DNA of 64,000 nucleotides, taken from assembly GCF_017355955.1 (NCBI RefSeq), contig NZ_JAFFID010000004.1, positions 62,001-126,000 on the forward strand, written 5' to 3'. How positions within the stretch are numbered: the first letter of the stretch is position 1; each line of letters opens with the position of its first letter. Shown here piece by piece: positions 23,332 through 27,812 of this stretch. The stretch comes from Sabulibacter ruber. Its GTDB lineage: Bacteria > Bacteroidota > Bacteroidia > Cytophagales > Hymenobacteraceae. A program made the position numbers and the translations under genes. The notes under the pieces are model-generated. The model saw nothing but the letters and a program-made list of their open reading frames with translations, searched no databases and was not told the origin of the DNA.

Positions 23332-24309
23332 ATGTACCTGAACAATATTATGGAGGCCATTGGCAACACGCCACTGGTGAAACTGAACAGTGTCACAGAT
23401 GGAGTGAAAGCCACGGTGCTGGCCAAGGTGGAGTACTTCAACCCAGGCAACTCTGTGAAAGACCGCATGGCCCTGCGCATGATTGAAGACGCCGAAAAAG
23501 CGGGTATTCTGAAGCCAGGTGGTACCATCATTGAAGGAACCTCGGGCAATACCGGCATGGGATTGGCCCTTACCGCCATTGCCAAAGGCTACAAGTGCAT
23601 CTTCACCATGTCTGACAAACAGAGCCAGGAGAAGATCAATATCCTGAAAGCCGTGGGTGCCGAAGTAATTGTTTGCCCTACAGATGTTGCCCCGGAACAC
23701 CCAGATTCATATTACTCGGTAGCCAAGCGGCTGAACCAGGAGATTCCTAACTCGTTTTACCCAAACCAGTACGATAACCTCTCCAACACCGCGGCGCACT
23801 ATGACACCACCGGCCCGGAGATCTGGAAACAGACCGAAGGCAAAATCACTTGCTTTGCCTCTGGGGTAGGAACGGGCGGTACCATCTGCGGTATCTCTAA
23901 ATACCTGAAAGAGCAGCAGCCAAACCTCAAAGTGGTGGGGATTGATACTTATGGGTCTGTGTTCAAGAAATACAAGGAGACTGGTGTCTTTGACGAGAAC
24001 GAGATCTACCCGTACAAAACCGAGGGGATTGGCGAAGACATCCTTCCCAAAAACGTGAACTTCGACCTCATTGACACCTTCATCAAAGTAACCGATAAAG
24101 ACGGTGCCATCATGACGCGCCGTTTGGCCAAGGAAGAAGGCTTGTTTGTGGGCTGGTCCTGCGGTTCAGCGGTATACGGGGCGCTGGAGTACGCCAAAGA
24201 ACACCTCACCGAGGAAGACACGCTGGTGGTAGTGCTGCCAGACCATGGTACCCGTTACCTTGCCAAAATCTATAACGATGATTGGATGCGGGAGCAAGGC
24301 TACTTGTAA
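23332..24309 (+). CDS. PLP-dependent cysteine synthase / cystathionine beta-synthase-like enzyme
   Basis: 325 aa fold-type II PLP enzyme. Schiff-base Lys43 in NSVKDRM, substrate loop TSGNTG (70-75) and phosphate-binding SGVGTGGT near 180. The N-terminal wording (EYFNPGNSVKDRMALRMIED, GWSCGSA near the end) is closer to cystathionine beta-synthase catalytic cores than to classic CysK, but no CBS regulatory pair follows. It makes cysteine from O-acetylserine or cystathionine from serine and homocysteine. The riboswitch-controlled metH and metF about 31 kb away are separate. Which reaction dominates cannot be told from sequence. Confidence 0.85.
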   Translation: MYLNNIMEAIGNTPLVKLNSVTDGVKATVLAKVEYFNPGNSVKDRMALRMIEDAEKAGILKPGGTIIEGTSGNTGMGLALTAIAKGYKCIFTMSDKQSQEKINILKAVGAEVIVCPTDVAPEHPDSYYSVAKRLNQEIPNSFYPNQYDNLSNTAAHYDTTGPEIWKQTEGKITCFASGVGTGGTICGISKYLKEQQPNLKVVGIDTYGSVFKKYKETGVFDENEIYPYKTEGIGEDILPKNVNFDLIDTFIKVTDKDGAIMTRRLAKEEGLFVGWSCGSAVYGALEYAKEHLTEEDTLVVVLPDHGTRYLAKIYNDDWMREQGYL

Positions 24310-24488: not shown

Positions 24489-25766
24489 GTGTTTCTCTTT
24501 CAGTTGTCCTCACATACAAACACAGCGGGTGGTCCGGCCGGAGGGGCGGGGCCTGATGGGTTGATTTTAGTGGGCGAGTTGCTGGTAGTGACGGCGTATC
24601 TGATTGTTGCCGGCGTTCTTTTCTACCTGGCTCTCAAGCGTGACGACAAGGAGCGCAGACGCGTTATGCTGCTCTTTGGGTTTATTGGCCTGATGGGGGG
24701 CGCGGTGCACCTGCTGAACATCTGGGGAGGCCCTGCCGCCGGCGATGCACAGCTCATCTTAAGGCTAATATTTGGCGTATTGGCCCTTATTGCCGCCATC
24801 AGGCTGTTTAAGGCCATTCCTGGTTTGCTGGCCATCCCTAGTCTCAACCAACTGACCAGAGCTAACTCCAAACTGCAGGAGCAGGTGGAAGAGCGTAAGA
24901 AAGCCGAAGCCGCTCTGCGCGAAACACAGCAAGAACTGGAGCAACGGGTTCGGGAGCGGAGCGCCCAGGCCATCACGGCTAACCGTGAATTGGAGCGGGA
25001 GATAGAAAACCGGAAAAAGACCGAGCGGCGCCTGATCTCCACCAACTATGAGCTGATCAAGAAGAACGCTGACCTTGATGATTTTGTCTACTATGCCTCC
25101 CGTGACCTTAAGGGCCCTGTGCTGAACGTGGCTGGTCTGGTAGAAGCCATCAGGGAAGAACTACCCACTGATAACCCTGAACTGGGTCAACTCTTTGCCC
25201 ACCTGGACGACTCTGTGGCGCGCATAAACCGGAAGCTGAACAACCTGGCCGAGGTGAGCCGCATTCAGAAACCTATCTCTGAAGAGCAACTGGGAATGGT
25301 TTCCTTAACCGAGGTGTTAGACCAGGTGAAAGAGAGCTTGCGGGAACCTCTGCAGGATTCGGGCGCTCTGCTTCGGGCAGATTTCACGGCAATGCCGGAG
25401 ATTTACTTTTCCAGAGACAACCTCATCAGCCTGCTGAACAACCTTATTTCTAATTCAATCAAATACCGTGAACCCCAGCGGCCGTTGCACATTTTTCTTT
25501 CCTCTGAACTGCAGGACCGGTACGCGGTGCTGAAAGTGCAGGACAACGGCATAGGCATGGACCTGAACCGGTACGGGCAGCAACTGTTCTCCCTGTTCCG
25601 TCGGTTCCATGACCACGTAGAAGGCAGCGGTATAGGACTATATATCATTAAACGCATCATGGACAACAACAACGGCAAAATAGAGGTGCAGAGCGTCTTG
25701 GGCGAGGGAACCACTTTTCTGCTGTATTTTGTACACCATGAACAACACACCGGAGCACGGGTATGA
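24489..25766 (+). CDS. Membrane sensor histidine kinase with Arg at the phospho-acceptor position
   Basis: 425 aa, GTG start. Three hydrophobic segments (about 25-48, 58-79, 88-115) faintly recall the ethylene-receptor-type sensor domain (LVGELLVVTAYL ... FGFIGLMGGAVHLLNIW), but its copper-binding Cys is not evident. A coiled coil (about 125-190) follows. The dimerisation domain reads DDFVYYASRDLKGPVLN, where related kinases have ASHDL; codon 205 (25101-25103) is CGT. The ATP-binding domain is intact: N-box LLNNLISNSIKY, DNGIGMDL and GSGIGLYIIK. So the ATPase part is preserved while autophosphorylation at the usual His should be impossible. It overlaps the response regulator by ATGA. Confidence 0.85.
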   Translation: MFLFQLSSHTNTAGGPAGGAGPDGLILVGELLVVTAYLIVAGVLFYLALKRDDKERRRVMLLFGFIGLMGGAVHLLNIWGGPAAGDAQLILRLIFGVLALIAAIRLFKAIPGLLAIPSLNQLTRANSKLQEQVEERKKAEAALRETQQELEQRVRERSAQAITANRELEREIENRKKTERRLISTNYELIKKNADLDDFVYYASRDLKGPVLNVAGLVEAIREELPTDNPELGQLFAHLDDSVARINRKLNNLAEVSRIQKPISEEQLGMVSLTEVLDQVKESLREPLQDSGALLRADFTAMPEIYFSRDNLISLLNNLISNSIKYREPQRPLHIFLSSELQDRYAVLKVQDNGIGMDLNRYGQQLFSLFRRFHDHVEGSGIGLYIIKRIMDNNNGKIEVQSVLGEGTTFLLYFVHHEQHTGARV

Positions 25767-26194
25767 AAAAATTGAAGGGCATTCTGCTCATAGACGACGA
25801 CGACACCAATAATTTCCTGAACCATCGCCTGCTCACCAGAATGCAGGTGGCAGAGAAGATCAGGGAGTTCCGTAACGGAAAACAGGCTTTTGACTATCTC
25901 TACAACATCAGCCAGGGCCATTACGATACCGCCTCTTCTGAATACTTTAAACCTGCCCTTATCCTGCTGGATATCAACATGCCGGTAATGGATGGGTTTG
26001 AATTTCTTTCCCTGTTTGAGAAATTGGACGAGAGCTTCCGGAAAGATGTAGTGCTGGCCCTGCTCACTACCTCTGAGCACAGCCAGGACACCGAGCGCGC
26101 TGCCGCCAGCAGCATCGCCTACCTGACCAAGCCCCTTACCACAGAAAAGGTGCAAGGTTTACTGGAGGAGCATTTCCCTGAGTTCAGGTCGTAA
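25763..26194 (+). CDS. Single-domain response regulator
   Basis: 143 aa receiver domain only. The acidic pocket is LLIDDDDTN (Asp9-12), the phospho-acceptor Asp lies in ILLDINMPVMDGFEF, the switch Thr/Ser in LLTTSEHS and the conserved Lys in LTKPL. All catalytic residues are present and no output domain follows. It is translationally coupled (ATGA overlap) to the kinase whose His is replaced by Arg. It may therefore take phosphate from another kinase or signal by protein contact. Confidence 0.88.
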   Translation: MKKLKGILLIDDDDTNNFLNHRLLTRMQVAEKIREFRNGKQAFDYLYNISQGHYDTASSEYFKPALILLDINMPVMDGFEFLSLFEKLDESFRKDVVLALLTTSEHSQDTERAAASSIAYLTKPLTTEKVQGLLEEHFPEFRS

Positions 26195-26376: not shown

Positions 26377-26494
26377 GAAGATTAAATAGAAGTAAACTGC
26401 TTCTTCTGTTTGAGCAGCATTATTTTCCTTGCAGCAAAGACTTATCCTGTAGATTATAAAAGCCGCTTAGACATTGTTTAAGCGGCTTTCTTTT
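26377..26494 (+). ncRNA. Candidate small RNA (promoter-to-terminator unit)
   Basis: TATCTTTG at 26363-26370 is a perfect -7 element with a predicted start near 26377. About 80 nt later, AAAGCCGCTTA (26459-26469) pairs perfectly with TAAGCGGCTTT (26479-26489), followed by CTTTTG. The interval has no open frame of useful length but has an internal hairpin (CTGCT 26397-26401 / AGCAG 26413-26417). It could also be a leader with an attenuator for the O-antigen ligase gene at 26541. Confidence 0.4.
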
Positions 26495-26540: not shown

Positions 26541-27812
26541 ATGACCCTCCTCGCAGATTTAAAAAAAGAAGAGAAAATCTTATTCGGCTTATTGGTTGCC
26601 TTTTTTATTACCCTCTATTTCGCCCATTTGAGTAGTATTAACTCTATCCTTACGGGAATGATCGTTGTCTACAGCTTTTTTATAGGGTCTTTGCAAGACA
26701 AATGGGAAACCCTAAAGCAACGAAAATACATACAGGGAATGCTCCTTTTCTTCCTAGTATTAGTGATCAGTACGCTCATCTCAGACGATGTGGCGAGAGG
26801 ATTTCATCATTTAAAGATAAGGCTACCTCTTTTAGTCTTTCCAGCTAGTATAGGCTTGCTTAGTTTAAGAGATGAGTTCAAGGGCAAGGTTTTGGTAACA
26901 TTTGCGACACTTACTACCATTATTTGCTTCTTGTGTTTAGTCTATGCCATTGATGCTTCTGATTTCTTCAAACGTCCCGAGTTCCTCTACAATGATTCTC
27001 TCTCATATTTCATAAGGCAACAATCTATATATGTTGCATTGGCAGTAAATCTCTCCATTTACATCTTTGCCAACATTATCTTTTTTAAGAGAAGCAGTCA
27101 TAAGTTTAGTATGTTGATTGCGGTACTGTTCTTGTATGGAATTAGTTATCTGCTTGCCAGCCGCATTATGTTTGCTCTGCTAATCTTTGCCACCCTTGCT
27201 TTCAGTTTTTACTATGTCATTCATAAACGGAAGTATTTGGAAGGGATAACACTCTTACTGGGGCTAGGTATAGGAATTATGGTTGTAAATAAAACAATGC
27301 CCAAAACTTTTAATAGGTACAAAGAACTTGGATATACAAGTTTTGACTACAAGAGTATGGGAAAGGAAAGCCACTACAATATGGAGATTACCCCTGATCA
27401 GTGGAATGGTGCAAACTTTAGGCTTGCTGCTTGGTCTTGTGGATGGGAGCTAGTAAAGGTTAACTTCCTGAAGGGAGTGGATCTAGGCGATAAAGAAAAA
27501 GCACTGACTGAAAAGTATCAGGAGAAGAATTTTCAATTCGCTATAAAGACAGAAAAAAATGTTCATAGTAATTACCTGGACATTCTCTACAGTGTAGGTA
27601 TAATTGGGTTCTTCGCCTATCTGTTTAGCTGGCTGATTTTGCCTTTTATCTCTGCTTTAAAGTCTGGTAATGTGTTAGGAATGGTATTCATTCTAACATT
27701 TGCCATTGCCTGGACTACTGAAGTGTATTTTGGTAGAACCTTTGGCGTAATGCTAGTTGGTTTCTTTCTGCCATTTATGCTTATAGATGAAAACAAAAAA
27801 AGTCCTCTGTAA
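26541..27812 (+). CDS. O-antigen ligase / polymerase family membrane protein
   Basis: 423 aa with about 10-12 hydrophobic segments. The Wzy_C/WaaL-type large loop is near residues 270-345, with the conserved HSNYLDILYSVGIIGFFAYL. Such proteins join polysaccharide to lipid A core (WaaL) or polymerise repeat units (Wzy). Because the neighbouring locus has an ABC exporter, ligase is the better guess; this is inference. Codon use is AT-rich like the rest of the locus. The stop codon lies inside the bidirectional terminator shared with the convergent exporter ATPase. Confidence 0.8.
   Translation: MTLLADLKKEEKILFGLLVAFFITLYFAHLSSINSILTGMIVVYSFFIGSLQDKWETLKQRKYIQGMLLFFLVLVISTLISDDVARGFHHLKIRLPLLVFPASIGLLSLRDEFKGKVLVTFATLTTIICFLCLVYAIDASDFFKRPEFLYNDSLSYFIRQQSIYVALAVNLSIYIFANIIFFKRSSHKFSMLIAVLFLYGISYLLASRIMFALLIFATLAFSFYYVIHKRKYLEGITLLLGLGIGIMVVNKTMPKTFNRYKELGYTSFDYKSMGKESHYNMEITPDQWNGANFRLAAWSCGWELVKVNFLKGVDLGDKEKALTEKYQEKNFQFAIKTEKNVHSNYLDILYSVGIIGFFAYLFSWLILPFISALKSGNVLGMVFILTFAIAWTTEVYFGRTFGVMLVGFFLPFMLIDENKKSPL

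Follow-up and report, generated by a model that had tools for sequence, protein, structure and literature searches.

Positions 24,489 to 26,194 of the window, the stretch of 64,000 nucleotides of Sabulibacter ruber DNA that was analysed (contig NZ_JAFFID010000004.1), harbour a gene for a histidine-kinase-like protein and, overlapping its end, a gene for a single-domain response regulator. The features of the locus are the following.

23332..24309, + strand: cysK-like gene, the conserved upstream neighbour by synteny; a marker of the locus, outside the proposed mechanism
24489..25766, + strand: histidine-kinase-like protein of 425 aa with a GTG start and Arg at the phospho-acceptor position (open reading frame, translation, orthologues and Pfam)
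24567..24836, + strand: degenerate ethylene-receptor N-terminal domain, residues 27-116 (Pfam ETR1_N; three predicted helices)
24696..24698, + strand: Gly70, which aligns with the copper-ligand Cys (Cys65 in plant ETR1; alignment)
25065..25268, + strand: DHp (HisKA-type) domain, residues 193-260 (Pfam HisKA at 196-260, slightly below cut-off)
25101..25103, + strand: Arg205 codon CGT at the phospho-acceptor position (translation and orthologue alignment)
25416..25730, + strand: HATPase_c ATP-binding domain, residues 310-414, with N, G1, F and G2 motifs (Pfam and motif table)
25763..26194, + strand: single-domain response regulator of 143 aa, overlapping the kinase gene by 4 nt (Pfam Response_reg)
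25970..25972, + strand: receiver Asp70, the expected phosphorylation site (sequence and receiver residue table)
26459..26489, + strand: terminator-like stem-loop 3' of the pair, 14 pairs with a T-rich tail (consensus match only; such sites were no more frequent than in shuffled sequences)

The CGT codon at 25101-25103 lies within NADLDDFVYYASRDLKGP and encodes residue 205 (Arg) in the box FVYYASRDL. The initial annotation of this DNA, made from the letters alone, held that this Arg replaces the His of relatives, and translation and alignment confirmed it. The HATPase_c match of the kinase scored 62.7 bits (cut-off 26.4) and its HisKA match 26.4 bits (cut-off 26.9). HisKA scores of two further Rufibacter orthologues were 26.2 and 25.0 bits, against 34.3 and 31.5 bits for two His-bearing orthologues. 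The N-terminus had been said to resemble ethylene-receptor sensors only faintly. This understated the likeness, as ETR1_N passed its cut-off (42.4 bits vs 27), although the 15 Rufibacter orthologues, at 34-51 bits, scored far lower than those in the family's other genera (100-130 bits). The genome contains 56 places resembling the kinase at E 1e-5; a second ethylene-receptor kinase was not found in it, ETR1_N giving a single match at E 0.01. An AlphaFold2 model of the monomer, built with 20 sequences, was of moderate quality (mean pLDDT 77.6, pTM 0.47) and consisted of helices at residues 22-50, 54-79 and 82-114, a long helix through residue 205, and the ATP domain.

The downstream receiver, described initially as having all its phosphorylation residues, indeed has them, as do its counterparts: the acidic pair (D, D), the phospho-Asp, T/S and K are intact in 15 of 15 Rufibacter receivers. 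They are also complete in the eight receivers that adjoin the 11 non-Rufibacter orthologues of the kinase, the other three (L028-L030) having no matching receiver in the stretch. The order cysK, kinase, receiver was found in all 15 Rufibacter genomes with the kinase, in each of three genomes inspected from genus g4, to which Adhaeribacter aquaticus belongs, and in genome G007 of another genus. For genus g3 a single locus (G013) was inspected, and it gave no match to cysK or to the receiver. The 4-nt overlap of kinase and receiver at 25763-25766 recurs in 13 of the 15 Rufibacter genomes, the other two having a gap of 14 nt, while the eight non-Rufibacter pairs have gaps of 6 to 51 nt, which suggests a tighter coupling in the pseudokinase clade. 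Beyond the pair starts an O-antigen ligase gene (26541-27812; Wzy_C, Pfam). None of the other 19 genomes inspected showed, in its 12-kb stretch, a match to this gene or to the next two open reading frames.

Arginine at the acceptor position

Counts for Rufibacter refer to the 16 genomes of the genus, that of the window included. A full-length kinase orthologue was present in 15 of them, the other 14 proteins being 59-79 % identical to that of the window. All 15 carry Arg at position 205, and the assemblies concerned include R. psychrotolerans, R. hautae, R. immobilis, R. latericius, R. ruber, R. sediminis and R. glacialis. The residue is encoded by CGT in eight genomes, CGC in four, AGA in two and CGG in one; with four codons in use, the Arg has survived synonymous change. 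The whole block N193-D206, Arg205 included, is invariant in the 15-row alignment. A motif scan of 79 loci returned nine with Arg, all of them Rufibacter orthologues, 67 with His and three without the motif. Thus, the proposed comparison with close relatives showed the Arg to be fixed, and the opposite outcome, with His in every orthologue and Arg in this assembly only, did not arise. A sequencing or assembly error at 25101-25103 was rejected as almost inconceivable, the same residue being present in 15 genomes, nine of which were matched to separate named assemblies.

In a search covering 150 genomes, 11 full-length orthologues were found in the family's other genera, ten with His and one (G007) with Asn. 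His stands at the cysK-linked locus in all three g4 genomes looked at. In a tree of 50 rows the 15 Rufibacter sequences grouped as a single clade (100/100), whose long stem measured 0.87 changes per column. The presence of His at the same locus in genomes of the Adhaeribacter group indicates that it was lost on the Rufibacter stem, and the simplest history is one His-to-Arg change there (CAY to CGY, a single base). With the His gone, neither autophosphorylation on it nor the usual His relay is possible for this protein.

The Asn of G007 (L026, L077) is encoded by AAC, in a cysK-linked orthologue in which the ATP motifs and the seven residues of the ethylene site are all intact. It may represent a second loss of the His, resembling plant subfamily 2 receptors, or, being found in one genome, an error.

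The copper and ethylene site

The residues of the copper/ethylene site are taken here to be, by plant position, D25, Y32, I35, P36, I62, C65 and H69. D25, C65 and H69 are given as ethylene-site residues in the available text of PMC11819568. In the alignment the position of Cys65 is occupied by Gly in 14 and Ala in one of the 15 Rufibacter proteins, and by Cys in all 11 orthologues from other genera; that of Pro36 by Ala in 14 and Ser in one, and by Pro in all 11 others. Furthermore, Gly/Ala is found at the I62 position and Val/Gly at the I35 position in 15/15 Rufibacter proteins, and Glu at the D25 position in 13/15, while Y32 is kept in 14 and H69 in all 15. As read from the alignment, the copper-ligand Cys and the Pro were lost on the same Rufibacter branch as the phospho-acceptor His, a degradation that the initial annotation had overlooked. 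Judged by its residues, in which Cys and Pro are absent, the kinase would not be a functional ethylene receptor.

This combination was compared with ETR1_N kinases across the order and family. From 104 ethylene-domain stretches, removal of 12 duplicates, 17 without an ATP domain and three unreadable at the His left 72 (the Cys of L137 and L149 was read by eye). Ten further stretches with weak matches added seven kinases whose Cys and His were read by eye, the other three (L269, L273 and L274) having no kinase. Of these 79 kinases, 78 have His and one (L098) has Asn at the acceptor position; the Cys is present in 74 and lost in five. Together with the 11 orthologues this gives 90 non-Rufibacter ETR1_N kinases, with His in 88, Asn in two and the Cys kept in 85. 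Among the kinases read, only those of Rufibacter have lost both Cys and His, either loss occurring alone elsewhere. A rule by which the copper site and the acceptor are lost together was rejected on account of the five kinases that keep His without the Cys (L266, L267, L268, L271 and L272). These five and the G007 protein, with Asn and an intact copper site, indicate that the two losses are not bound together.

Read by eye, the Cys is replaced by Phe, Thr, Thr, Ile and Val in these five proteins, respectively, and in L272 the second ligand, His, is also replaced, by Tyr. Such domains may sense something besides ethylene. L098 (genome G450), seen in a single genome, belongs to another subfamily of ethylene-domain kinases within the order and has an ATP domain. 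The 17 stretches with an ethylene domain and no ATP domain (L049, L051, L052, L055, L059, L062-L064 and others) are mostly short open reading frames of 155-240 aa.

Constraint and possible function of the pair

The ATP-binding boxes had been said to look complete, and the main ATP-site residues proved to be conserved: all 26 orthologues share the second Asn and the Lys of the N box and have the same residues at G1, F and G2. The rest of the N box varies within the 15 Rufibacter proteins, its first Asn being His in four and its Tyr being Phe in two. ATP would presumably be bound by the pseudokinase.

Values of pN/pS were calculated from 105 Rufibacter pairs and from pairs within His-bearing subclades, which number only 12 (nine for the receiver). 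For Rufibacter vs the His-bearing subclades they were 0.455 vs 0.244 in the ethylene domain, 0.166 vs 0.249 in DHp, 0.241 vs 0.216 in the ATP domain and 0.218 vs 0.293 in the receiver, and these ratios are rough because pS is near saturation. When rates were scaled to the ATP domain and compared with the His clade, the ethylene domain came out 1.84-fold faster (95 % interval 1.41-2.49, column bootstrap) and DHp at 0.66-fold the rate (0.44-0.95). DHp is the most conserved domain in Rufibacter, with dN/dS of 0.03-0.05 in four closer pairs. Twelve residues are shared by all the Rufibacter proteins and found in none of the 11 other orthologues, and seven of the twelve lie in DHp, a clustering with p 0.0016 when all ungapped columns are considered and p 0.054 when only Rufibacter-invariant columns are. 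They include Arg205, Tyr202, where the 11 others have Cys, Leu or Ser, and also Lys249 and Asn252, which correspond to Thr and Asp, respectively, in the other orthologues.

R. roseus is the one Rufibacter genome without the kinase orthologue. An orthologous receiver was not found either, the best match being 48 % identical and adjoining a paralogous kinase. The cysK locus of this species is conserved upstream. A tblastn search of the 1.5 kb past cysK found no receiver, and of the kinase only two chance pieces of 12 residues on the opposite strand (E 1.9 and 6.9). With both genes gone in R. roseus, the pair is present or absent as a unit across the 16 genomes. The absence from this species and the faster evolution of the ethylene domain could point to a decaying gene without function. 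However, the kinase frame is open in 15 of 15 genomes, pN/pS is below 1 in all domains, DHp shows stronger conservation than its counterpart in active relatives and the Arg was kept despite codon change. Decay into a pseudogene, which is highly improbable, was rejected largely on the pN/pS and codon evidence. Conservation of the rest of the protein and of its partner suggests a new job rather than decay, and the conserved pseudokinase coupled to a phosphorylatable receiver, as it appears from these comparisons, is considered real.

The explanation ranked first, with a probability of roughly one half, is that the protein is a DivL-like pseudokinase that has stopped feeding the co-encoded receiver and instead docks it after phosphorylation by another kinase, with Arg205 as a possible clamp. 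DivL of Caulobacter crescentus binds DivK~P and is described in the available part of PMC4211667 as having no kinase or phosphatase activity and as binding nucleotide weakly. In the Rufibacter ancestor a membrane kinase of the ethylene-receptor type and a single-domain response regulator would have been paired at the cysK locus. On the Rufibacter stem the His was replaced by Arg, and the Cys and Pro of the copper/ethylene site were lost. Another kinase would now phosphorylate the co-encoded receiver, to which the DHp helix pair would still offer a docking site. The DHp and ATP domains would sense the state of the receiver and relay it to a partner, information presumably flowing in that direction. 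Arg205, which by homology would face the phospho-Asp of the receiver, could clamp its phosphoryl group. The strong constraint on DHp, the adjoining and intact receiver and the joint absence of the pair from R. roseus all fit docking of the receiver, and retention of the Arg suggests a specific role for it, possibly that of holding the phosphoryl group. The initial proposal of a scaffold, or of a receiver fed by another kinase, stays the best reading, with the Arg fixed and the main ATP-site and receiver residues conserved. Against a DivL-like role it can be argued that the conserved main ATP motifs would fit a catalytic role as well, nucleotide binding by DivL being weak.

Such a catalytic role is conceivable, though with a clearly smaller chance, if the protein is one half of a heterodimer in which its ATP domain phosphorylates the His of another, active kinase and so lends or tunes activity. 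The invariant N-box Asn and Lys and the invariant G1, F and G2 residues favour this, as does a constraint on the ATP domain about equal to that in His-bearing relatives. Heterodimers of the pseudokinase ChrS with HrrS have been reported (PMC9491836, available text), and the same genome encodes a His-intact sibling kinase with its own single-domain receiver. On the other hand, conservation is stronger in DHp than in the ATP domain, the same receiver adjoins in 15 of 15 genomes and no partner was found. A donor or partner kinase for the pair was searched for and not found, the nearest sibling pair being L260 (G000:C145), a kinase of 1161 aa with an intact His and a receiver of 134 aa encoded 28 nt downstream. 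Matches to the L260 kinase and receiver adjoin in R. roseus too. The L260 pair is a candidate donor or partner.

His-less kinases can retain phosphatase activity. The pseudokinase might therefore strip phosphate from the co-encoded receiver after loading by other kinases, acting as a phosphatase or phosphate sink, and the conservation and joint absence of the pair agree with such a role. HisKA phosphatases, however, need Thr or Asn at the fourth position after the His (PMC3510030, available text). This position is Gly in 12 and Ala in three of the 15 Rufibacter proteins, and Ser in six, Ala in four and Val in one of the 11 other orthologues, so that the required residue is absent from both groups. 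The phosphatase role suggested initially is less supported in view of the Gly and Ala residues, and is considered unlikely.

It is likewise improbable that the protein is still a kinase with another acceptor, which would be Tyr201 or Tyr202, Asp206 or Arg205 itself. N193-D206 is invariant in the 15 proteins, Tyr202 is specific to and fixed in Rufibacter, and Asp206, at the general-base position, is kept together with the main ATP-site residues. Against this, the geometry of the helix is presumably tuned to His. Phospho-arginine has a high-energy P-N bond, as has phospho-histidine. In the most specific form of this idea, which is very doubtful, the ATP domain would phosphorylate Arg205 and the phosphate would pass to the receiver Asp; the specific retention of Arg through four codons, and of Asp206, the ATP site and the receiver, would be consistent with it. 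We know of no example of a phospho-Arg relay to a receiver, and none of the literature matches listed for phosphoarginine in two-component systems names it in the title. If true, Arg205 phosphorylation would mean a two-component system running on arginine.

Comparison with known pseudokinases and ethylene receptors

Well-studied histidine pseudokinases were few among the literature matches listed, with DivL foremost. Within the literature covered, which leaves out most subscription papers, no paper on histidine kinases of Rufibacter was found, and among the matches listed for pseudo-histidine kinases or for Arg at the acceptor position DivL and ChrS were the cases considered relevant. After rescoring of Foldseek matches, the model resembled HK853 (2c2a, Z 20.0) and DivL (4q20, Z 19.5) equally well, differences below 1 counting as ties. 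By sequence (phmmer) DivL is a distant match (E 1.2e-4, among 35), behind many other kinases. Where the two proteins differ, the acceptor position is Arg here and Tyr in DivL, an ethylene-receptor membrane domain stands in the place of the PAS sensors of DivL, and the receiver gene overlaps the kinase gene. DivK is encoded elsewhere than DivL. DivL and the Rufibacter protein share the histidine kinase fold with N, G1, F and G2 boxes kept and the acceptor His replaced, a conserved patch around the replaced residue and a receiver partner, DivK for DivL and a putative one here (PMC4211667, available text). If the DivL-like reading holds, the pair would allow the reversal of information flow in two-component systems to be tested independently in bacteria other than alphaproteobacteria.

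ChrS of a laboratory-evolved Corynebacterium glutamicum is likewise an inactive kinase, linked to heterodimers and cross-phosphorylation (PMC9491836, available text), but there a frameshift destroyed the ATP domain, whereas here the ATP domain is kept, the acceptor is lost and the change is fixed in nature. The bacterial ethylene receptors SynEtr1 and AzoEtr1 also combine a three-helix ethylene-binding domain with a histidine kinase; they differ in that the binding residues are kept, and SynEtr1 signals via kinase activity and a phosphorelay (PMC11819568, available text). In the plant subfamily 2 receptors ETR2, ERS2 and EIN4, too, an ethylene-receptor membrane domain precedes a kinase region that has diverged; of the three, EIN4 alone keeps the acceptor His, according to the available text of PMC3611092. 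Plant receptors differ in having a copper-bearing ethylene site and GAF domains, and those of subfamily 2 have an additional helix (PMC3611092, available text). Unlike in plant subfamily 2, the main ATP motifs are kept here and the copper site is gone. By these comparisons the protein would be a pseudokinase with a histidine kinase fold that is distinct from an active histidine kinase, a functional ethylene receptor and DivL, and it would parallel, in a bacterium, the degenerate ethylene receptors of plants. Since it is fixed across a genus with the ancestral His at the same locus elsewhere, the switch could be replayed residue by residue. Relatives supply natural single-loss controls, the His being lost with the copper site kept in one case and the Cys being lost with the His kept in others.
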